Source of the DNA: Planctomycetia bacterium | GTDB lineage: Bacteria > Planctomycetota > Planctomycetia > Pirellulales > PNKZ01 | Assembly: GCA_021413845.1 (NCBI GenBank) | Contig: JAIOPP010000005.1 | Location: 1 to 46,299 of the forward strand | DNA length: 46,299 bases | Direction: 5' to 3' | The notes under the pieces: generated by a model | What the model was told of the DNA's origin: nothing | Databases searched by the model: none | What the model saw: the letters and a program-made list of their open reading frames with translations, nothing else | In this document: piece by piece, positions 14,047 to 45,760 of the stretch | Numbering within the stretch: the stretch's first letter is position 1 | How the letters are laid out: each line of letters starts with the position of its first letter | Position numbers and translations under genes: made by a program

Positions 14047-14166
14047 ATCGTACCTAAAGTCGATGCTCGGCTCTTGCGGCTGCTAACGGATGGCACCGCG
14101 CCGAACGATCGAGGAATCGCGCGCATTTTCGAATGCGGCGCGCACGCTGGTTCGCAAGGAGGCGCT

Positions 14167-15408
14167 ATGTCGCAACGGCCGTTCAAATTCGTTCACGCCG
14201 GCGACTTTCATTTAGAGTTGCCGGGCGAAGGTTCCGCCGACGTACCCGAGACGCTCGCAGACTTGCTGATCGAGTCCCCTTTTCGAGCGGCCGAGCAAGT
14301 CTTCGACACGGTCATCGCGGAAGAAGCCGACCTGCTGATCCTCTCGGGCAACTTGCTCGACGTCGATCTCACCGGTCCGCGCGGCATGTTGTTTCTGATT
14401 CAACAGTTCGAGCGGTTGCGCGAGCGCCGCATCAGCGTCTATTGGGCCGCCGGCGAAGTCGATGCGGCCGAACGACGAAGCACTTCGTTTCGCTTGCCGG
14501 AAAACGTGCGCATCTTTTCCAGTCTCAGACCGGAAGAGATCGCCGTCACACGCGACGGACTCAAGCTCGTACAACTCACCGGTTGGAGCCGACCGCAAGG
14601 AGAACGGATTCGCACGGGCGACTTCCGACCCGACCCCGGCGGCTTGTTCTCGATCGCGGTCGTCGCCGGCGACGTGCCGACCGATGAGCCGGTCGGTCGC
14701 GGCATTCACTATTGGGCGCTCGGCGGCGAAATGCAACGCCGCACCATCTCGCTCTTCGGCGCTACGGCCCATTGGCCCGGCAGCCCGCAGGGGCGCGGCT
14801 TCAACACCATCGGCCCGCACGGCTGCACGGTCGTGCAAGTCGACACGTTCGGCACGGCCCGCGATCGGTTCGTGCCGTGCGATGCGGTGCGGTGGCACAA
14901 TCAAACCTTGCCGATCGACTCGTCGACGTCGCTCGAACAAGTCCGCACGATGCTCGATGAAGCGATTCGCACGGCGAGCGTCACCAACGGCGGCGTCGAA
15001 GTGCTGACCCGTTGGCGAGCCGCCACGGCCGGTCGCGTTTCCCCTTCGCTTCGGCGAGCGGGCGTGATCTCCGACTTGCTGCGGAGTTGTCGACACGCGT
15101 ATCGCCCCAACATGAAAGTGTGGACCGAGCAAGTCGCAGTCGAGACGGAACACTCGATCGACCTGCCGGACCCGAGCCGCGAAAGCGTGCTCGCCGATTA
15201 TTTGCGCATCGCCGAGCGGTTCGACAGCGCCCCGACCAGCGATGAGGCGGAGAAGATGTTCGATTTCCATGCCGCTTCCGCTCTGCTCGGCGAGGCGGGC
15301 CGATGGTCCGACGTGCTCGACCTCGTCGAGGTTCACGAGCGACGAAGTTTGCTGCGCGAGGCGGCCGTCTTGGCCCATGATCTGCTGGCGGAGGAGACGG
15401 AATTATGA
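14167..15408 (+). CDS. SbcD/YhaO-like calcineurin-type phosphoesterase with degenerate metal site
   Basis: The 413-residue protein starts at ATG 14167, set by AAGGAGG at 14156-14162; the frame is open further upstream without support. The fold and neighbour match SbcD/Mre11/YhaO, which cut DNA with two metals. Motif I is intact (GDFH, Asp13 and His15), but motif II, normally GDIFD, reads GNLLD (61-65), the GNHD motif reads GEVD (96-99), and the ALGHxH motif reads ALGGEMQ (184-190). The Asp, Asn and His ligands are therefore missing, and nuclease activity is unlikely. Residues 270-413 form a helical capping or partner-binding region. The stop overlaps the start of the ATPase gene as ATTATGA, consistent with a stoichiometric complex. 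Confidence 0.8.
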   Translation: MSQRPFKFVHAGDFHLELPGEGSADVPETLADLLIESPFRAAEQVFDTVIAEEADLLILSGNLLDVDLTGPRGMLFLIQQFERLRERRISVYWAAGEVDAAERRSTSFRLPENVRIFSSLRPEEIAVTRDGLKLVQLTGWSRPQGERIRTGDFRPDPGGLFSIAVVAGDVPTDEPVGRGIHYWALGGEMQRRTISLFGATAHWPGSPQGRGFNTIGPHGCTVVQVDTFGTARDRFVPCDAVRWHNQTLPIDSSTSLEQVRTMLDEAIRTASVTNGGVEVLTRWRAATAGRVSPSLRRAGVISDLLRSCRHAYRPNMKVWTEQVAVETEHSIDLPDPSRESVLADYLRIAERFDSAPTSDEAEKMFDFHAASALLGEAGRWSDVLDLVEVHERRSLLREAAVLAHDLLAEETEL

Positions 15409-18400
15409 TCATCAAAGATCTACGCATCGAAGGCTTCGGAGTTTGGAGCGACCTCGAGCTCAACGATCTCGACGGCGGGCTCACGCTCCTCTACGGCGAG
15501 AACGAGACCGGCAAGACCACCTTGCTCGAGTTCATGCGCTCGGTCCTCTACGGCTACAACGACGAGCGCCGCGCGAAGTATTTGCCTCCGGTCCACGGCG
15601 GCATCGGCGGCGGCATGCTCAGCTTGGAAGCGCATGCCGGGAAGTTCAAAGTGCGCCGGCGCGCGGAAGGGGATCCGCACGTCGGACGCCTCGACCTCAC
15701 GAACCTGCAAGGGACCGCACAAGACTCGCGGCTCTTGAAGAAAATCCTCGCCGACTTGGACGAGCCGACGTTTAAGAACGTCTTTGCGCTCGGCCTCGGC
15801 GAAATCCAAGAACTCAGCTCGCTCAGCGGTTCCGGCGCGGCCGAGTATCTCTACGATCTCGCCGTCGGCTCCGGCGGCGTATCCCTCACGGAAGTCCACA
15901 AGGAACTCGAAAACTCGCGCAACCGGCTCTTCTCGAGCGAGCGCAATTCGATGGTCGGCCAACTGCTCGACCGGCGCTCGGGCTTGAAGTCGGACATCGA
16001 ACAACTCCGCCAACACGGCCGCGGCTACGCCCTGCTCGCCGATGAGCGCGAACGCTTGGCCGGCGACGTCGAACGGTGCGAAGTCGAGGCCGACGAACTG
16101 CGCCGCAACGCCGGTTTGCTCGAAGCGGCGATCGCCGTGTACGACCGTTGGCATCGTCGCAACAAGGTCGAGGCCGAACTCACGAAGATCGGCGAGCTCA
16201 AGCCGATCGCAGCCGAAACATGGACGAAACTCGCGCAACTGAAAGACCGCTATCGCGAACAGTTGCCCCTGATCGCGAAGCTGAAAAAAGAACGGGCCGA
16301 CGTCAAGAAGCAAGCCCTCACGATCCGCGTCAACAAGACGATCTGGCAACAGGGCCCGCGCATCGAAGTGCTCGCGGCGCAAGAAGGCTGGATCGAGACG
16401 CTCGAAACCGAAATCAAGAAACTCGAAAGCGAAGCCACGGCCGCGAAGCCGATCGTCGCAACGAGCCTCCACGATTCCGGTCGTCATGGCGCGAGCCATC
16501 ATAGTTCGAGCCACGCTTCGGTGCCGATGGGTGCGAGCGTGCGCCGCGAATCGCTTTCGGCCGAATGGGTGAAGCTCGGCCTCACCCCCTCGACGGCCGA
16601 AAAGCTCGGCGATCGCAAGGTCTTGCGCACGCTGCACCGGGCGTTCCGCGACGTGCAAGCCTCGGACAAGCGCGTGGCCGCGGCGGCGGAAGCCGAAGCG
16701 CGACGACGCGAAGTGATCGCCGCGACGGCCGAAGAAGCGAAGCCCGCGAGCCAGCGCCGCGAGTCCGGTGCGACGCTCGAAGACAAGTCGCAACTCGTCG
16801 GCAATTTGCGCAAGCGCGTTCAACTCGATCAGAAGATCGATCAACTGACGGGCCATCGCGAAGAGGCGCAGCGCCAACTGCGCGAGAAGCTGGCGATGAA
16901 CACCGTGCCGGCCGACGCGATCTTCAACCCCGGCTTGTTCTTCATCGTCGGCGTGTGCGCCTTCCTCTCGGGCGTGCTCTTGCCCAACGCCGTGGTCGGC
17001 GACGGCTTGCTGCACTACTTCCTCGTCTTCGCAGGAGGCCTTACGGCGCTCTTCGCCGGCGCATTTAAGATCATGCGCGACACGACCAACAACGAAGAGC
17101 TCGACACGCTCCGGCGGCAATCGCGCAGCATCGAAACCCAGCTGCACGACCTCACGAGCGAACGAGACCAAATCGACCCGCTGCTCCCTCCCGGCGGCGG
17201 CCCGATGCTCGCCCGCCTCCAAGCGGCCGAGAAGGATCTTTCGACGCACGAAGAAGCGGCCGCCGGCGAAACCCGCCGCACTGCCGGTCGAACGGCCGGG
17301 CGCGAAGAGCTCGAAACCACGCGGGTCGAGCTGCGCGTAGCCGAAGAAGAAGGGGCGAAAGCTCATAAGCGATTGCGCCAAGAGTTCGATCGAATCGGCC
17401 TGCCCGAACGGATGACATGGGAACAGATTCGGGGCGTCGCGCGCGGGCGGACGAAGCACGAAGCGCATCGTCGACGCGAAGAGCGACGTTTGAAATATCT
17501 TAATCAACGCCGTAGCGAACTCGCTTTGATCGCCGATCGCATCTCGCAGCTCTTCACCGAAGCGCAGCTGGAACCCAAGGGAGATCGCCTCGTCGATCAC
17601 CTTCGCCAACTCAACGGCGAGTGGAAGCGCAACGAAGACTTACTCGAACGTCGCAAGGGCTCGCGCGCACAGTACCGTTCGCTCGATCGACGATTGAAGA
17701 CGGCCCGACAAGAAACCGCCACGCTCCGCCGCCGACGCAAAGCGTTCTTCCGCTCGCTCGGCGTGAGCAACGAAAAGCAATTGCAACGCCGCCGCGAGCA
17801 CCTCAAGCGCCGCGACGAGCTCCTCGCCGAACGAGACGGCATCTCGCGTGAAATCGTCGCCGCGCTCGGCCAGCGCGGGAGCGAAGACGATCTGCACGGC
17901 CGACTCGAGCAGTACCAACTGCCGCAACTCGAACAACGTTGGACCGAACTTTGCGATCGCCTCGCCGCGATCGACAAACGGCTCAGGGAACTTTACGAAG
18001 AGCAAGGCCGGCTGCGGCTCAAGCTCGAACAAATCGCGGCCGATAAGTCGCTGCCGCGAAAGATCTACGAGCTCAATAACGTCGAACGCCAAATCGGTCA
18101 AACGCTCGAAGAATGGCAAGAGCTCACCGTCGCTCAACGGCTGCTCGAAGCGGTGCGCAAGAAATACGAAGCCGAACGGCAACCGGAAACGCTGCGTGAA
18201 GCCTCGCGCTATTTCGAGCGGCTTACCGAAGGAAAATACAAGCGCGTCTGGACGCCGCTCGAAGCGGGCGTCCTCTTCGTCGACACCGCCGGCGGCGAAA
18301 AGCTGTCCGTCGAAGTCCTCAGCCGAGGCACACGCGAACAGTTGTTCCTCGCGCTCCGGCTGGCGCTCGTCGACCTTTATGCACGCCGCGGCAAAGTGAT

Positions 18401-19031
18401 GCCGCTCGTGCTCGACGACGTGCTCGTCAACTTCGATACCCGCCGCACGCGCATCGCCGCGGAACTGCTGCGCGATTTCGCCGGCGATCGACGCCAAGTG
18501 CTGCTGTTCACCTGCCACGAACATATCTATCGGATGTTCAAAACTCTCCGAACCGAAGTCCGCCTGCTGCCGGGACAATCGATCATGGAAGAAGACGAAG
18601 GTCCGGTTCGCTATGTCGATCGAGTGGTCGAGAAAGTCGTGGAAAAGGTCGTGAAGGTGAAGGAGCCGGTCTACTTGCAATCGCCCGCTCCGGAACCGCC
18701 GCCTTCGCTGCCGCTGCCCCGGTTCGATGGAACCGGCGTGTTCCATCTCGCACCCCGCCCTGCTCCGATCGTCGTCCGCGAAGCGCCGAAGCCGGCACCG
18801 GTGAAGCCGGTCGTCGTCGAGACTCCGCCGCCGAAGGAGCCCGAGTACGAAGACATCGTCGAAGAGACGCTCGTCGAAGCCCCGGCACGCACGATCTTGC
18901 ATACGAAGCGCGTCGGCTACCCGATCGTGCCGATGTGGAGCCCAACGACTCCGTTCGCCGAGGCCACATGGCAAGACTCGATCGAAGACGATGAGACCGA
19001 GCACGCGGCGACGAACGGGAAGCGGAAGTAG
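15405..19031 (+). CDS. YhaN/SbcC-like SMC-type ATPase with central membrane hairpin
   Basis: The 1208-residue protein has the YhaN AAA-domain N-terminus (MIIKDLRIEGFGVWSDLEL), Walker A GENETGKTT (31-39), long coiled coils (about 170-500 and 570-900), the ABC signature LSRGTREQLFLALRL (972-986) and Walker B LVLDDVLVNFD (1001-1011). Two hydrophobic segments at about 507-527 and 535-557 interrupt the coils, as in YhaN relatives, so the coiled-coil tip is probably membrane-anchored. A His/Ser-rich linker (HGASHHSSSHAS) occurs near residues 365-376. Past the ATPase core, about 150 residues form a Pro/Val/Glu-rich tail (VEKVVEKVVKVKEP, then PAPEPPPSLPLP). It overlaps the phosphoesterase gene by 4 bases. 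DNA repair or membrane-linked DNA handling is inferred from the family. Confidence 0.85.
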   Translation: MIIKDLRIEGFGVWSDLELNDLDGGLTLLYGENETGKTTLLEFMRSVLYGYNDERRAKYLPPVHGGIGGGMLSLEAHAGKFKVRRRAEGDPHVGRLDLTNLQGTAQDSRLLKKILADLDEPTFKNVFALGLGEIQELSSLSGSGAAEYLYDLAVGSGGVSLTEVHKELENSRNRLFSSERNSMVGQLLDRRSGLKSDIEQLRQHGRGYALLADERERLAGDVERCEVEADELRRNAGLLEAAIAVYDRWHRRNKVEAELTKIGELKPIAAETWTKLAQLKDRYREQLPLIAKLKKERADVKKQALTIRVNKTIWQQGPRIEVLAAQEGWIETLETEIKKLESEATAAKPIVATSLHDSGRHGASHHSSSHASVPMGASVRRESLSAEWVKLGLTPSTAEKLGDRKVLRTLHRAFRDVQASDKRVAAAAEAEARRREVIAATAEEAKPASQRRESGATLEDKSQLVGNLRKRVQLDQKIDQLTGHREEAQRQLREKLAMNTVPADAIFNPGLFFIVGVCAFLSGVLLPNAVVGDGLLHYFLVFAGGLTALFAGAFKIMRDTTNNEELDTLRRQSRSIETQLHDLTSERDQIDPLLPPGGGPMLARLQAAEKDLSTHEEAAAGETRRTAGRTAGREELETTRVELRVAEEEGAKAHKRLRQEFDRIGLPERMTWEQIRGVARGRTKHEAHRRREERRLKYLNQRRSELALIADRISQLFTEAQLEPKGDRLVDHLRQLNGEWKRNEDLLERRKGSRAQYRSLDRRLKTARQETATLRRRRKAFFRSLGVSNEKQLQRRREHLKRRDELLAERDGISREIVAALGQRGSEDDLHGRLEQYQLPQLEQRWTELCDRLAAIDKRLRELYEEQGRLRLKLEQIAADKSLPRKIYELNNVERQIGQTLEEWQELTVAQRLLEAVRKKYEAERQPETLREASRYFERLTEGKYKRVWTPLEAGVLFVDTAGGEKLSVEVLSRGTREQLFLALRLALVDLYARRGKVMPLVLDDVLVNFDTRRTRIAAELLRDFAGDRRQVLLFTCHEHIYRMFKTLRTEVRLLPGQSIMEEDEGPVRYVDRVVEKVVEKVVKVKEPVYLQSPAPEPPPSLPLPRFDGTGVFHLAPRPAPIVVREAPKPAPVKPVVVETPPPKEPEYEDIVEETLVEAPARTILHTKRVGYPIVPMWSPTTPFAEATWQDSIEDDETEHAATNGKRK

Positions 19032-21493: not shown

Positions 21494-23677
21494 ATGCTCC
21501 AAGTGCGAAGCGAAACCTCACGACGATTGCTTCGCCGTCTCGTCGCCGCTCTCGCCTTGCTCGTTTGCCTGCTCCGTTCGTCGTCGCCGGCGCTGGCCGG
21601 AGGTGGCCCGGAAAACGTGCTGCTCGTCGTCAACGAGCGCAGCTGGTCGTCGCTCACGATCGCGAACCACTACATTCGGAATCGCAAGATCCCGCCGCAA
21701 AACGTCTTCTATCTGAATTGGACGGACGACAACGAGCGGATCGACGCCGCCACGATGCGCGCGAAACTACTCGGGCCGATCCTCGCCGAGATCGAGCGCC
21801 GCCGCCTTACCGACCACATCGACTACGTCGTCTACTCCAGCGACTTCCCGACCCTCATCGATTGCTCCGCCGATGTCGCGCCGGGCACGAAGGTTCCGCC
21901 GGTGCTTACGCCGCAAGCCTCGCTCACGGGCGTGACGTTTCTGCATCAGAAGTTCATGGCGCAAAAGCCGGAGTATTTGCTGTTCACGTCGAACGGATAT
22001 TTTCGCCCGGCGACTGCGACCGACGCCCCCGCCACGCACGGCTTCCGTTCGTGGTACGGCTGGGACGCCGGACACCGACTGCTCGAAGCCGGTGGCGAGC
22101 ACTACTTACTTGCGGCGATGCTCGGCGTTACCGCCGGTCGCGGCAATTCGACGGACGAAGTGGTACAGATGCTCGCCCGCAGCGCCGAGGCCGACTATTC
22201 GCGACCGACCGGCACGATCTACTTCGCCGAGAATTCCGATATCCGCTCGAAGACGCGGCTCCCGCTGTTTGCGAAAGCCGGCGCGGAGATTCGTCGCGAA
22301 GGGGTCGCAGCGGAAATCTTTTCAGGCATCGCGCCGACGAACAAAGCCGACGTAGCCGGCGCGATGCTCGGCAGCCCCGACTTTTCCTTGCGCGAGACAC
22401 GGAGCAAACTCCTACCCGGCGCGATCGGCGAACACCTCACTAGTCACGGCGGCATGCTGAACGAAGGAGCGGGACAGACGCCGATCTCCGAATGGGTCCG
22501 CGCCGGCTCGGCTCTCACTTCCGGCGCGGTATGGGAACCGTATGCCGTGCCGCAGAAATTCCCTTCGGCATACATGCATCTGCACTACGTGCGCGGCTGC
22601 TCGGCCGGCGAGGCCTATTATCAATCGATCTCCGGCCCTTACCAAATGCTCGTCCTCGGCGATCCGCTTTGTCGACCTTGGGCGCGCCGCGCAACGATCG
22701 AAGTCGCGGGCCTGGATTCGACCAAGCCGGCGAGCGGACAGGTCACGCTCGTACCGACAGCGAAGTTCGACGATGGGGACGAAGCCTCGGCATTCGAGCT
22801 TTACATCGACGGCATGCTGTTCGGTGCGACTCGGCCGGGAGGAACCTTCACGTTCGACTCGCGCACGCTCGCCGATGGTCGGCATGAGCTGCGGATCATG
22901 GCGATCGGCTCCGAGACGATCGAAACGCGGAGCGGCATCGTCGTGCCGCTGGACGTCGTCAACCACGACGGCAAGCTCGCGTTGAAGCGTGTCGGCATCG
23001 GCACGGTTCGGTGGGGAGAACGACTCGAAATCGAAATCGAAAACAGCGGATTCGTCGCTCCCGCGAGCATCGTCGTCGCGCAAGGAAGCCGGCTGATCGC
23101 GCAATTCATCGACGCGACGTCGCGCAGAATCCGTCTCGATCCGCGGCTGCTCGGCTCAGGGCCCGTCACGTTGCAGGCGTACGCCGTTTCGCAAGCCGGG
23201 CCCATCGCGAGCTTCGTTTCTCCGCCGCTTGAGTTGGAGATCGAAGGCAATGAGCCGTTGCCGAAGTTTCCCTTCTCGGGCGAAGAAAAGCTGGAGTCGG
23301 GAGCGGCGCTCACGCGCGGCGAGAAGCCCGCGACCGTGATCACGTCGGCGACGTTCGACGATTGCTTGCGCGAAGCGGGAGTCGATCCGGGAGAGAAATT
23401 CACGATCGATGGGTTCTTCGAGGTCGAAGAAGACGGAACTTATCAATTCCACGTTCGCCACGGCATGCGCCTCAGCCTGGCGGTCGACGATCGCCCGCTG
23501 TACGGAACGGACGCCAAGCACGCGACGCTCGACAATGTTCCGGTCGCGCTTAAAGCGGGCCGACACAAGCTGCAACTGCGCGGCACCGCCGGCGGCGACT
23601 TACGGTTGGATATCCGCTTCGGGCTGCGCGGCGTGCAGCGCATGCAGCCGAGCGCGCTGAAACACGCCGCTTCTTAG
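21494..23677 (+). CDS. Secreted TIGR03790-family protein with C-terminal PA14-like domain
   Basis: The 727-residue protein has a signal peptide (basic RRLLRRL, then hydrophobic core, cleavage predicted after ALA at residue 35). Residues 38-400 match the TIGR03790 pattern (ENVLLVVNE, SLTIANHYIRNRKIPPQNV, GWDAGHRLLE, YQMLVLGDPLCRPW), a family of unknown function. Residues 410-600 look like beta-sandwich modules, and residues 615-715 resemble PA14 (FFEVEEDGTYQFHVRHG, LKAGRHKLQLRG), a carbohydrate-binding type fold. AGGGGAG lies before the ATG, 12 bases after sufS, so it may share the suf transcript, although a functional link is unclear. Its TAG stop overlaps the convergent DUF1501 stop. Confidence 0.8.
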   Translation: MLQVRSETSRRLLRRLVAALALLVCLLRSSSPALAGGGPENVLLVVNERSWSSLTIANHYIRNRKIPPQNVFYLNWTDDNERIDAATMRAKLLGPILAEIERRRLTDHIDYVVYSSDFPTLIDCSADVAPGTKVPPVLTPQASLTGVTFLHQKFMAQKPEYLLFTSNGYFRPATATDAPATHGFRSWYGWDAGHRLLEAGGEHYLLAAMLGVTAGRGNSTDEVVQMLARSAEADYSRPTGTIYFAENSDIRSKTRLPLFAKAGAEIRREGVAAEIFSGIAPTNKADVAGAMLGSPDFSLRETRSKLLPGAIGEHLTSHGGMLNEGAGQTPISEWVRAGSALTSGAVWEPYAVPQKFPSAYMHLHYVRGCSAGEAYYQSISGPYQMLVLGDPLCRPWARRATIEVAGLDSTKPASGQVTLVPTAKFDDGDEASAFELYIDGMLFGATRPGGTFTFDSRTLADGRHELRIMAIGSETIETRSGIVVPLDVVNHDGKLALKRVGIGTVRWGERLEIEIENSGFVAPASIVVAQGSRLIAQFIDATSRRIRLDPRLLGSGPVTLQAYAVSQAGPIASFVSPPLELEIEGNEPLPKFPFSGEEKLESGAALTRGEKPATVITSATFDDCLREAGVDPGEKFTIDGFFEVEEDGTYQFHVRHGMRLSLAVDDRPLYGTDAKHATLDNVPVALKAGRHKLQLRGTAGGDLRLDIRFGLRGVQRMQPSALKHAAS

Positions 23678-42187: not shown

Positions 42188-45100
42188 CTAAGGTGCCACG
42201 ATCTCGAAGTGGTAGGAGACGGAGTTCGGGCCGGGAGGCATGCTTCCGCCGGAGATGGAGTTGTTTTCGCCGTAGTGGCGGAACTCGAACACGAGACGAT
42301 ACTTTCCCGGAACGAGGCCGGCGATCGTCTGTTGCGAGACCGTGTTAGTGTCGAACTTTCCGGGGGTGATCTGCTGGCGACCGTTGATCTGGTAGCTCGA
42401 AACGCTATAGAGATTGCCGTTTCGCGTTCCGTTCTGCGAAAGGCTGGGGATCGTTTTCGGGCCGTCCAAGCGTTCGATCCACCGGCTGACGAAACCGATG
42501 ATCGGAAAACGGAACGTCGCATTGGGATCGTTATTCGGCGGCACCATAAATGGTTCCGAATTGAAGTTCACGAGCTCGACTTGGAACGGAAAGCCTCGTC
42601 CTTCCGGAATTCTCACCGGCTGATTCGCCGCGGGCTGCACGCCGAGGCACATTTTCATCGCGCTGAAAAGATTGTATCCGGAAACCGTGATCGTCACTTT
42701 TTGCTCTTTGCGATCCTTCCCGCGCGTGAGGATGAAATCGACTTCGTAAGGGCCTGCCGAGGTCCCTTCGGGGGCCATGATCGGCACGAACAATTGTCCG
42801 TTGTCGGCGCGGATGCCGGTCGGCAAGGCGCGAATGGTTTTCGGCAAGGTTCGGATGACGAGTCGCGTGCCGGTCGGCAAGCCGGTCATGGGGACCGTGC
42901 CGATGGAAACGGGCATCGCCAGGCCCGACATGAAAGTGAGTTCCGGATTCAATTGAATCTTCGCCAACGATCCTTCCTCGGAAGGCGGAGCAGGCGAGGC
43001 CGCGCTACTCGCAGAAGACGGCAGCGATTGCGGAGTCGTCATCGCAACCGAGGTGCCGGACGTTGGGCTCGGAAATGTGGAAGGCGACGTCGTCGTGGTC
43101 GGCGTTGTGGTCGGCATGGTACTCGTCGACGTTTGCGCGACGAGATTCGGCGCGACATCGAGCTCGCGAACGGCGCGAAAGCCGAAGCTTGTCGTGCGGA
43201 GAGTGCGGGTCGAGCTGCCGCGCGCGGTGCTGCGACATTGGTAAAGGGGTCCGATGCTCGCGCCCCCTCGCACCACGACCACCGTGCCGGTCGTTGAGGC
43301 GACCGGGTTATTGAGCGAAGCCCTGGCGTAGAAGGTTTCGTCGTAGTTGTCTTGGCACCACTCTTGGACGTTGCCGTGCATATCGTAAAGACCGAACGTG
43401 TTCGGGTGCTTGATGCCGACCGGTTGCGAGCGAAAGCCCGACGTTCTTCCGTTCCAAACGAAATGATCCATCAAGGCATCGTCGTCACCGAACGAATAGA
43501 AGGTCGACGTTCCGGCCCGACAGGCGTATTCCCATTCGGCTTCGGTCGGTAGGCGATAGGTGGTTCGCTCCTGAGTCGAGAGCCAACGGCAATAAGCCAG
43601 GGCATCGTTCCAAGTGACTTGCGTGACCGGATGCTCCTCGGTGATCGGAAAGCCCGGGGTCCGCCAATTCTTGCCACGGTTGTTTTCGATGGCTCGTTCG
43701 GGATTCGTTTGGCCGGAACTGTTGCCGTAGCCGTCTTGTTCGGCTTCGGTCAGGTAGCGGGTCGCGTCGGCGAAGCGGCGGAACTGACCGACCGTAACTT
43801 CGGTGGCTCCCATCGCAATCGGCTTCGCAAATACGACCCGATGCCGAGGCCTTTCCCCCTTCTCGATGCGGGTCAGCGCCGCCGGCGTTGCAGAGGTCAT
43901 GCTGAGTTGCCGCACGATTTCCGCAACTTGCTCGTCGGTGCTTCCCATGATGAACTCGCCGGGAGGGATGAGCACCATCTTCGCGCCGACGGAGTTCGTC
44001 GTCGTAATGCCGACACCAAGGCGCCGCGCCCAGTCTTCTTGCAAGACACGAGCTTGCGACGAGCCGGGGGGCGCGACGTAGGAACTCGGCAACGAACTCC
44101 GATCGTAGGGGAAAGCATTCGACGAGCTCGACACGGAAGGCACCGAGGTCGCGACGCCGCTCGGCGAGTTGCTTCCTCCGTTCATTGCCGATGATGTCGA
44201 ATTAGAGCCGTTCGAAGAGGAAGCAGTCGCGAATTGCGACACTGCGGGCTTCGGTGCGACCACGGCCTTCGTCGTGGGAACGACCGGCACCGCAGCAGGA
44301 ATTACCGGAGCGGCCGATTGCGGCACCACCGGCACGGGCGCGACGCCCGCTTGGGCTCCGCTCGCGTGTACGATCTCGTTGCCCCCCTTGTCGCGAAGCA
44401 GTGCCCACGTTCCGCCGATCAACAAAAGCAGCAAGCCCGCGACTCCGCCGGCGATCAGCGCAAGGGGTTGCTTGCTCACCAGACTTCGGGCGGCCGAAGG
44501 GGCATTGGTTGCGGACGTGCGCCCGCGCGGCGCCATGCCGAGGCGCGGATCGGTCTCGACCTCCGCACGAATTTGGCCGACGGTTGGTTCGCGCCCGTTC
44601 GATGGCGAATCCGACACGATGACCGGAAAGCCGGAATTCGAGCCCACATCCGACGTCGAACGAACCGAGCTTTGGAAATCGTGTGAAGAGTTTTGGCGTG
44701 TCGCCATTCCGGCGACGGCATAGGAGGCCGCGCCTCCGGAACCGCGCAGCGATTCCAACGCGGCGACCAACTCGCCCGCATTTTGAAAGCGATCGGCCGG
44801 CTTCTTCGCGACCATCCGCTCGAAGATGTACTGCAAGTCGGCAGGGACGTCGGGACGACGAGCCGAGAGCGACGGAATCGGCGCGGTCATGTGCGCGAGA
44901 ATCTTCTTCACGACCGAATCGGCGTGATACACATTGTCCTTCGTCAGCAGCCGATAGAGCGAGCAACCGAGACTATAGATGTCGCTCCGGGCATCGGCAT
45001 CGTGCGTGCTGGCGGCTTGTTCCGGGGCCATGTAGTCGACCGTTCCCATTACTTGGCCGGCGTTCGTGAGTTGATGGTCGGCCGCGTCTCCCGAGTCGTC

Positions 45101-45760
45101 GAAGCGAGCCAAGCCCATATCGAGAATCTTGACGATCCCCTTCTTATCCAGCAGCAGATTGGCAGGCTTGATGTCGCGATGTACGACTCCTTCACCATGC
45201 GCATAAGCCAAGCCGCGCGCCGCTTGCAAGATGCAATCGACCGCTTGATTGATCGGCAGCGGCCCATGCTCTTTGACGATCGCCGAAAGATCGCGACCGT
45301 CGACATACTCCATCACCAAATACCAACTGCCTCGCTGCACGCTCGCATCGTGCGATTGAACGATGTTCGGGTGCGCAAGCTTCGCGGCGGCTTTCACCTC
45401 GCGTTGAAAACGCTTGATCGCGTTCTCATCTTTGGTGAGCGCCGCGGGCAAGAGCTTGATCGCGACGAGGCGCTCCATGTGCCGATGCTGGCCCTGGAAG
45501 ACTTGGCCCATGCCTCCGGCGCCGATCTTCGAGAGGAGCACGTAGTCGCCGAGGACGAGCGGCGTGTCGCGACCTGCGAAGATCTCGCCGGCCTGAAACT
45601 CGGTGAGCTTTTTGAGCGCAATGAGGCGCTTCGCAAAAGCTTCGCCGTCGTAAGGGCGATCTTGCGGGGCGAACGTCGCCCACACGGCTTTCACTTCTTC
45701 CGGCGTCATGACGCCGGACGCAACAACCGCTTTGCCGAATTGCTCGACTGTGATGGCCAT
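42188..45760 (-). CDS. Ser/Thr protein kinase fused to FGE-sulfatase-like domain
   Basis: The product has 1190 residues. After a roughly 70-residue N-terminal helical region comes a PknB-like kinase (about 72-340): GAGGMG glycine loop (80-85), Lys102 in VAIK, catalytic HRDIKPAN (194-201), DMG in place of DFG (214-216) and YMAPEQ (243-248). A single membrane helix (433-455) separates it from an outside part: a Ser/Pro linker, an FGE-sulfatase-like domain (about 590-880, [40 protein letters not shown]), a Thr/Ser/Pro linker, and a C-terminal domain (945-1190) of beta-rich character. The two-Cys active site of true formylglycine-generating enzymes is absent, so it likely binds ligand. The N-terminal kinase would act inside the cell. 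Confidence 0.9.

Follow-up and report, generated by a model that had tools for sequence, protein, structure and literature searches.

A degenerate SbcD/YhaO-like subunit and its ATPase partner with a predicted membrane hairpin in Planctomycetia

Why should a bacterium keep a complete gene for a nuclease subunit after most residues of its cutting site have gone? This question is raised by a 46,299-nucleotide stretch of a Planctomycetia genome (contig JAIOPP010000005.1; hereafter the window), in which a gene for an SbcD/YhaO-like protein overlaps a downstream gene for a Rad50/SMC-type ATPase. The original prediction was that the subunit is a conserved non-nuclease partner rather than a decaying gene. 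The data presented here argue for the same view, as the substitutions are class-wide and fall into a single clade, dN/dS is low and the ATPase motifs are intact.

The features of the subunit gene, all on the forward strand, are the following.

14167 to 15408, +: degenerate SbcD/YhaO-like subunit, 413 amino acids plus stop (translation, family alignment and profiles)
14156 to 14162, +: Shine-Dalgarno-like AAGGAGG, 4 nt upstream of the ATG (read directly)
14194 to 14217, +: motif I, HAGDFHLE, with D13 and H15 kept (translation and alignment)
14341 to 14361, +: motif II, LSGNLLD, with Asp replaced by Asn at position 62 (translation and alignment)
14452 to 14463, +: motif III, GEVD for GNHD, positions 97 and 98 lost (family profile and profile-profile alignment)
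14665 to 14667, +: motif IV, position 167, Ala here and His in 42 of 42 intact homologues (alignment)
14716 to 14736, +: motif V, ALGGEMQ for ALGHxH, positions 187 and 189 lost (family profile and profile-profile alignment)
15405 to 15408, +: ATGA, overlap of the subunit stop and the ATPase start (read directly)

The frame is complete, as had been claimed, with 413 residues and then a stop, and the motifs GDFH, GNLLD, GEVD and ALGGEMQ are exact in the translation of 14167-15408, where motif III stands as AAGEVD. A longer alternative frame begins with TTG at 14074; the MSQRP N-terminus is common to the three closest relatives, whose starts were chosen as the ones nearest to that of the query. 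A sigma-70 scan gave a sole site, on the opposite strand and inside the ATPase gene.

Taken as a single sequence, the subunit has no phosphoesterase Pfam match, no PDB match and no match to the SbcD model TIGR00619, each at E<=1, and the NCBIfam Mre11 models match it far under their cut-offs (E 0.00097 and 0.023). Profiles built from the family give more insight. Metallophos is matched by 28 of the 44 members of the family alignment, and the family profile finds 17 distinct Mre11/SbcD chain sequences in the PDB at E<=0.01, the best at 7.5e-6. Profile-profile comparison with the intact paralogue described below reaches a probability of 100 (E 6.8e-55) over 392 columns. Homology to Mre11/SbcD is thus real, though scarcely to be seen in the single sequence, and the family profile points to a phosphoesterase fold related to that of Mre11; this fold call rests on sequence, as an AlphaFold model of the subunit from two sequences was unusable (pLDDT 38.5). 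GEVD aligns to GNHD and ALGGEMQ to ALGHIH, and therefore both the Asn and the His of motif III and both His of motif V are replaced. The final D of GNHD and that of GDxxD, both kept in the subunit, are presumably not metal ligands.

Next, the ligand positions were followed across homologues. A search of the window's order gave a match in 121 of 146 genomes, from which a window-type group without GNHD and GHxH (T1; 52 rows including the window, with L009, L039 and L080 dropped as copies) and a paralogue group with every motif intact (T2; 18 rows) were obtained. A search of the phylum matched 64 of 294 genomes at 1e-6 and added 45 rows (24 and 21), with many weaker matches lying outside the sample. 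The final alignment holds 115 Planctomycetota rows; L083 was dropped, being the window itself, and L087, L088, L100, L102 and L110 were swapped for longer copies. The ligand columns of motifs II, III and V were tied to Mre11 chains; that of motif IV is the least certain, and the row of L121 is poorly aligned. For the eight positions we use Pyrococcus furiosus Mre11 numbering and roles as we take them to be.

The resulting pattern is bimodal: all eight ligands are present in 42 rows and none to five in 73, with six or seven in no row. Among the 73 degenerate rows, D8 is retained in 56, H10 in 47, D49 in 44, H173 in 28 and H208 in 40. Retention is lowest for H85 (3 rows), N84 (1) and H206 (0), which are therefore missing from 70, 72 and 73 of 73 rows; the substitutions first noted in one genome are accordingly found, as a class, across planctomycete homologues. 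The window subunit keeps D8 and H10 only, two of the eight Mre11-type active-site positions, which bears out the claim that most metal ligands are lost and adds position 167 of motif IV to the losses first listed. That shifted residues supply the ligands instead finds no counterpart in the alignment, as there is no new His, Asp or Glu at positions at least 88% conserved in T1. N113 is stricter in T1 (94%), yet it is also the commonest T2 residue (64%).

Regarding the origin of these losses, a quick tree was built without the ligand columns from 107 of the 115 rows, with long branches flagged; its 67 degenerate rows form one clade (SH-aLRT 98). In a more careful tree of 52 chosen rows (32 degenerate), again without the ligand columns and rooted on two outside relatives, the clade is supported at 100/99, and a single change is needed in 100% of 200 bootstrap trees. 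The degenerate clade is limited to the window's class within this sample. As the other sampled classes of the phylum are intact, the nuclease site was most simply lost in a single event within the class.

In the case of the partner ATPase, the following elements were identified.

15405 to 19031, +: ATPase of 1208 amino acids, AAA_27/YhaN-like, Rad50/SMC-type (Pfam AAA_27, E 2.1e-15, 57.3 bits, cut-off 22)
15495 to 15518, +: Walker A, GENETGKT (motif pattern)
16911 to 16967, +: predicted transmembrane segment 1, residues 503-521 (mean Kyte-Doolittle hydropathy 1.83 in a span of 19 residues)
17007 to 17063, +: predicted transmembrane segment 2, residues 535-553 (Kyte-Doolittle mean 1.71)
18318 to 18341, +: ABC signature, LSRGTREQ (motif pattern)
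18405 to 18437, +: Walker B/D-loop, LVLDDVLVNFD (motif pattern)

With Walker A, an LSxGT signature and Walker B all present, the ATPase is apparently intact, as originally described. No zinc-hook CxxC was found in the window ATPase. A long Pro/Val/Glu-rich C-terminal tail extends beyond the ATPase core (18525-19028, +), and the lengths of the homologous frames vary. The pairing itself is conserved. Among 38 T1 loci with long flanks, a downstream ATPase was found in 34 by the first motif pattern, and the remaining 4 also have one, with GxNGxGKT, the signature of L116 (FSRGTQEQ) being read by eye; the patterns missed the signature (L048) or Walker B in some rows. Of 49 other T1 genes counted, 29 have a 4-nt overlap of this kind (ATGA, GTGA or TTGA).

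The two hydrophobic segments form a predicted membrane hairpin in the middle of the protein, and this hairpin is a distinctive feature of the partner that goes beyond the original prediction. Transmembrane prediction was by hydropathy alone, with a 19-residue scan and a threshold of 1.7. One or two segments, starting 435-536 residues past Walker A, are present in 34 of 34 T1 ATPases, with a third hydrophobic segment in the tail of the L074 ATPase. Of four further T1 ATPases one has a segment, the others forming a sub-branch (L113, L116, L121). In total, 35 of the 38 T1 ATPases scanned carry a predicted segment or hairpin mid-protein; the scan covered loci other than the short-flank T1 loci L010-L038. 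These three exceptions combine a dead nuclease with no predicted segment, so that anchoring is not universal, and the hairpin was rejected as the mark of every dead-nuclease pair.

The three, from another order of the same class, also form a second dead-nuclease branch with features of its own. L113 (2837-6214) encodes an ATPase with a C-terminal DUF4332/helix-hairpin-helix region, which the tails of L116 and L121 resemble by eye, and CxC pairs occur mid-protein in the L113 and L121 ATPases.

Among the labelled T2 ATPases, segments were predicted in 3 of 25 (L126 twice and L128, distant relatives); hydropathy in the other 22 peaks at no more than 1.61 between 200 and 850 residues past Walker A. 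Additional T2 ATPases had a segment in 0 of the 9 that reach this region, a tenth (L163) ending before it. L126 (G190) carries two intact-nuclease, TM-bearing SbcEF-like pairs about 10 kb apart within one 17.8-kb stretch. Relatives outside T1 and T2 have a predicted segment in 8 of 8 ATPases. Motif III beside these eight is GNHD in six and GAHD in L167, and the pattern missed L168; L167 thus contradicts the idea of a fully intact site in every TM-bearing relative outside T1, the motif III of L168 being unmatched. Outside the phylum, a Lachnospira pair (Bacillota, L173) has intact motifs and one segment, a Natrinema pair has intact motifs and a transmembrane prediction, and a Microvirga pair, its motifs likewise intact, shows no segment.

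The window hairpin is flanked by arms rich in K/R/E/D/Q (39 and 47%, versus 8%), and we infer from this composition that the arms form a coiled coil. Two membrane passes would leave both arms on the same side, as a clamp would need.

The pair shares several features with SbcEF/YhaNO of Bacillus: a phosphoesterase-fold protein and an SMC-like ATPase are encoded together as a two-gene unit, the adjacent AAA_27/YhaN-like ATPase passes its cut-off, and this ATPase has predicted transmembrane segments mid-protein (two, by hydropathy). We assume here that SbcF is YhaO, and that SbcE has a mid-protein transmembrane segment by which it is defined. The difference lies in the active site, as GEVD and GGEM replace that of the YhaO type, and for this reason the window pair was filed as a nuclease-dead SbcEF/YhaNO branch and not as a YhaO nuclease. 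SbcE is equated with YhaN and yhaONM is called a putative cluster for double-strand break (DSB) repair (PMC3896406), and SbcEF is described as implicated in DSB repair, although its role there is poorly characterised (PMC6452273). The T2 paralogue has the same fold (over the 392 columns), gene order and ATPase family as the window pair, but it keeps the eight ligands in 18 of 18 rows and its ATPase, with the distant L126 and L128 set aside, lacks a predicted segment in 22 of 22 and 9 of 9 cases; it resembles proteins on a Microvirga plasmid whose annotations read 'DNA repair exonuclease' and 'YhaN family protein'.

With Mre11-Rad50/SbcCD the window pair shares the fold, as judged by profile, a Rad50-like ATPase partner and the ABC signature. 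It differs from them in lacking the catalytic motifs III and V and a match to the SbcD model, and in having a hydrophobic hairpin instead of the zinc-hook CxxC, which in Rad50 sits at the tip of the coiled coil. Loss of the motif III His is also found in the Mre11 chain 3dsd (GNSD), which we take to be the H85S mutant, and in SbcD H84Q, but these are engineered single changes, whereas the window-type loss is natural, multiple and spread across many species. Escherichia coli SbcCD H84Q is described as deficient in nuclease activity, its ATPase being reduced by only about 15% (PMC6265447). This indicates that the motor can work without cutting, and provides a precedent for a dead-nuclease complex. 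In Haloferax, Mre11-Rad50 is reported to restrain recombination (PMC2700283). Searches of the open-licence literature listed no report of a nuclease-dead Mre11/SbcD family in planctomycetes.

The history of the ATPases follows that of the subunits. In a rooted ATPase tree, from which rows without a recognised signature were dropped, T1 (36 rows, SH-aLRT 98) and T2 (29 rows, 100) are separate, and the TM-bearing relatives fall outside both. The ATPases split as the subunits do with SH-aLRT 100 when the long rows L126 and L128 are left out; with both kept, two changes are needed and not one. As to the order in which T1, T2 and the intact group with a TM segment (T0: L153, L155, L156) branched, support reaches no more than 80 in the rooted ATPase tree, and the careful subunit tree gives no firm order. 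The simplest account would be an SbcEF/YhaNO-type ancestor with both anchor and nuclease, from which T1 lost the nuclease and T2 the anchor. Tentatively, and with less than balanced confidence, we suggest that the class split this ancestral anchored machine, so that the dead branch became a dedicated DNA-membrane tether and the other kept the nuclease and dropped the anchor.

Altogether, with the cutting site lost and an ATPase partner with a predicted anchor kept, the probable task of the pair is to hold or sense DNA at the membrane instead of cutting it. We favour, with reasonable though not strong confidence, the reading that the protein is a pseudonuclease and serves as a subunit in an ATP-gated DNA clamp tethered to the membrane, within a complex of the SbcEF (YhaNO) type. 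The residue losses, their single origin, the conserved pairing, the intact ATPase motifs and the hydrophobic hairpin are computed results; nuclease inactivity, coiled coil, topology, DNA binding and the role in the cell are our proposals. In such a clamp, ATP binding would close the two ATPase heads on DNA, and a pseudonuclease dimer would brace the heads and add to DNA binding. The hairpin, at the tip of the presumed coiled coil and thus in the place of the Rad50 zinc hook, would hold the complex at the membrane. The complex could then act as a tether, bridge or sensor of DNA, whether of broken ends or of the chromosome against the membrane, with cutting left to other enzymes.

It is also possible, but rather unlikely, that the subunit is purely structural and stabilises an ATPase complex serving membrane remodelling, signalling or defence. 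Metal-free phosphoesterase folds act as scaffolds elsewhere, namely in polymerase B-subunits and Vps29, and in PADLOC the ATPase is matched best by Lamassu LmuB (E 8.3e-11, with 559-1036 as the best stretch). However, the subunit has no PADLOC match at E<=0.1, and membership in a defence system is unsupported by these results. Unlike mobile defence systems, T1 is present in 109 of the 146 genomes of the order at a strict cut-off (E<=1e-30), the group being confirmed by motif only in the fetched genomes. Moreover, the relatives of described role are known to act on DNA, SbcEF being a case (PMC6452273). The sequences searched were genomes of Planctomycetota, plasmids and viral contigs, together with one narrow genome-contig scan. 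One scan of viral contigs gave no relatives; the T1 query returned 203 plasmid records, and the 12 matches listed have 24-31% identity and are mostly called "DNA repair exonuclease".

A second alternative, which we consider improbable, is that a residual site acts as a one-metal or altered phosphodiesterase on another substrate. D8, H10, D49 and H208, which we take to be the ligand set of one metal, are kept together in 34 of the 73 degenerate rows, and some activity is therefore possible in those. When the divergent L044, L048 and L131 are left out, 53 T1 rows of the order remain, and in these the four are kept at 94, 85, 77 and 75%, respectively. This suggests that the common ancestor may have kept one metal, lost later in the close relatives of the window subunit. 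The window subunit and its near relatives lack two of the four, with N62 and with M or P at 189. Across the degenerate rows H10 is missing from 26 and D49 from 29 of 73, which looks relaxed rather than essential, and the motif III His is gone from 70 of 73.

Quite improbable, in our view, is a scaffold recruiting a separately encoded nuclease, with DNA resection in trans. An intact paralogue (T2, at least 200 bits) does occur in 37 of the 109 T1 genomes, and 3 have an SbcD over its cut-off. Against this, 69 have neither, a count that regards over-cut-off SbcD only. The dead version is the sole one of T1 and T2 found in 72 of 109. The window genome, 99.59% complete and in 167 contigs, belongs to these 69: TIGR00619 has no match in it at E<=0.001, the T2 search returned only the window gene itself, and one AAA_27 ATPase is present. 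Its 11 PF00149 matches were considered as a complementary nuclease and all judged to be other phosphoesterases, presumably membrane, secreted, YmdB-, YfcE- and phosphatase-like ones. Nor is any other window gene conserved beside the pair. In a test restricted to relatives of the window's own genes, the pair alone among the window frames recurred in 14 of 14 neighbourhoods (about 19 kb); other window genes match the same-genus locus, with scattered matches in one or two loci, including DUF1501 proteins. In the same order, members of family f8 mostly lack T1 and T2, and G025, G107 and G123 have an over-cut-off SbcD, suggesting replacement.

Regarding selection, the subunit gives NG86 dN/dS values of 0.12/0.88, 0.13/0.75 and 0.19/0.85 against three close relatives (ratio about 0.14-0.22), and the ATPase 0.20/1.03 and 0.32/1.02 in two comparisons, the subunit being lower; the values are rough, as synonymous sites are near saturation. 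The subunit gene is under purifying selection. G187 (in place of a motif V His), W93 and P27 are fixed in 53 of 53 T1 rows and unfixed in T2. Thus, although further ligand losses have occurred in several family lineages, a decaying gene heading for loss is practically dismissed by this low dN/dS, by lineage-specific invariant residues, by order-search matches that, among those listed, have no internal stops, and by presence in 109 of 146 genomes.

Should the pseudonuclease reading hold, it would bear on an open question, usually approached with point mutants, namely for which of its tasks Mre11-Rad50 depends on the nuclease and for which DNA tethering is enough. A natural nuclease-dead and apparently membrane-anchored version across many species isolates the non-nuclease function and, if the proposed split between paralogues is true, the 72 of 109 dead-only genomes would be a natural test of Mre11-Rad50 without cutting. 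It would also suggest that DNA and membrane are linked at the molecular level in planctomycetes, which are described as having unusual condensed nucleoids and membrane invaginations (PMC8567305).

Elsewhere in the window, a search of Pfam at 1e-4 gave nothing for a 727-residue frame (21494-23677, +), whose sole match in 14 related loci is to the same-genus one (54%). On the reverse strand, 42188-45760 encodes a 1190-residue protein with Ser/Thr kinase and FGE-sulfatase domains.
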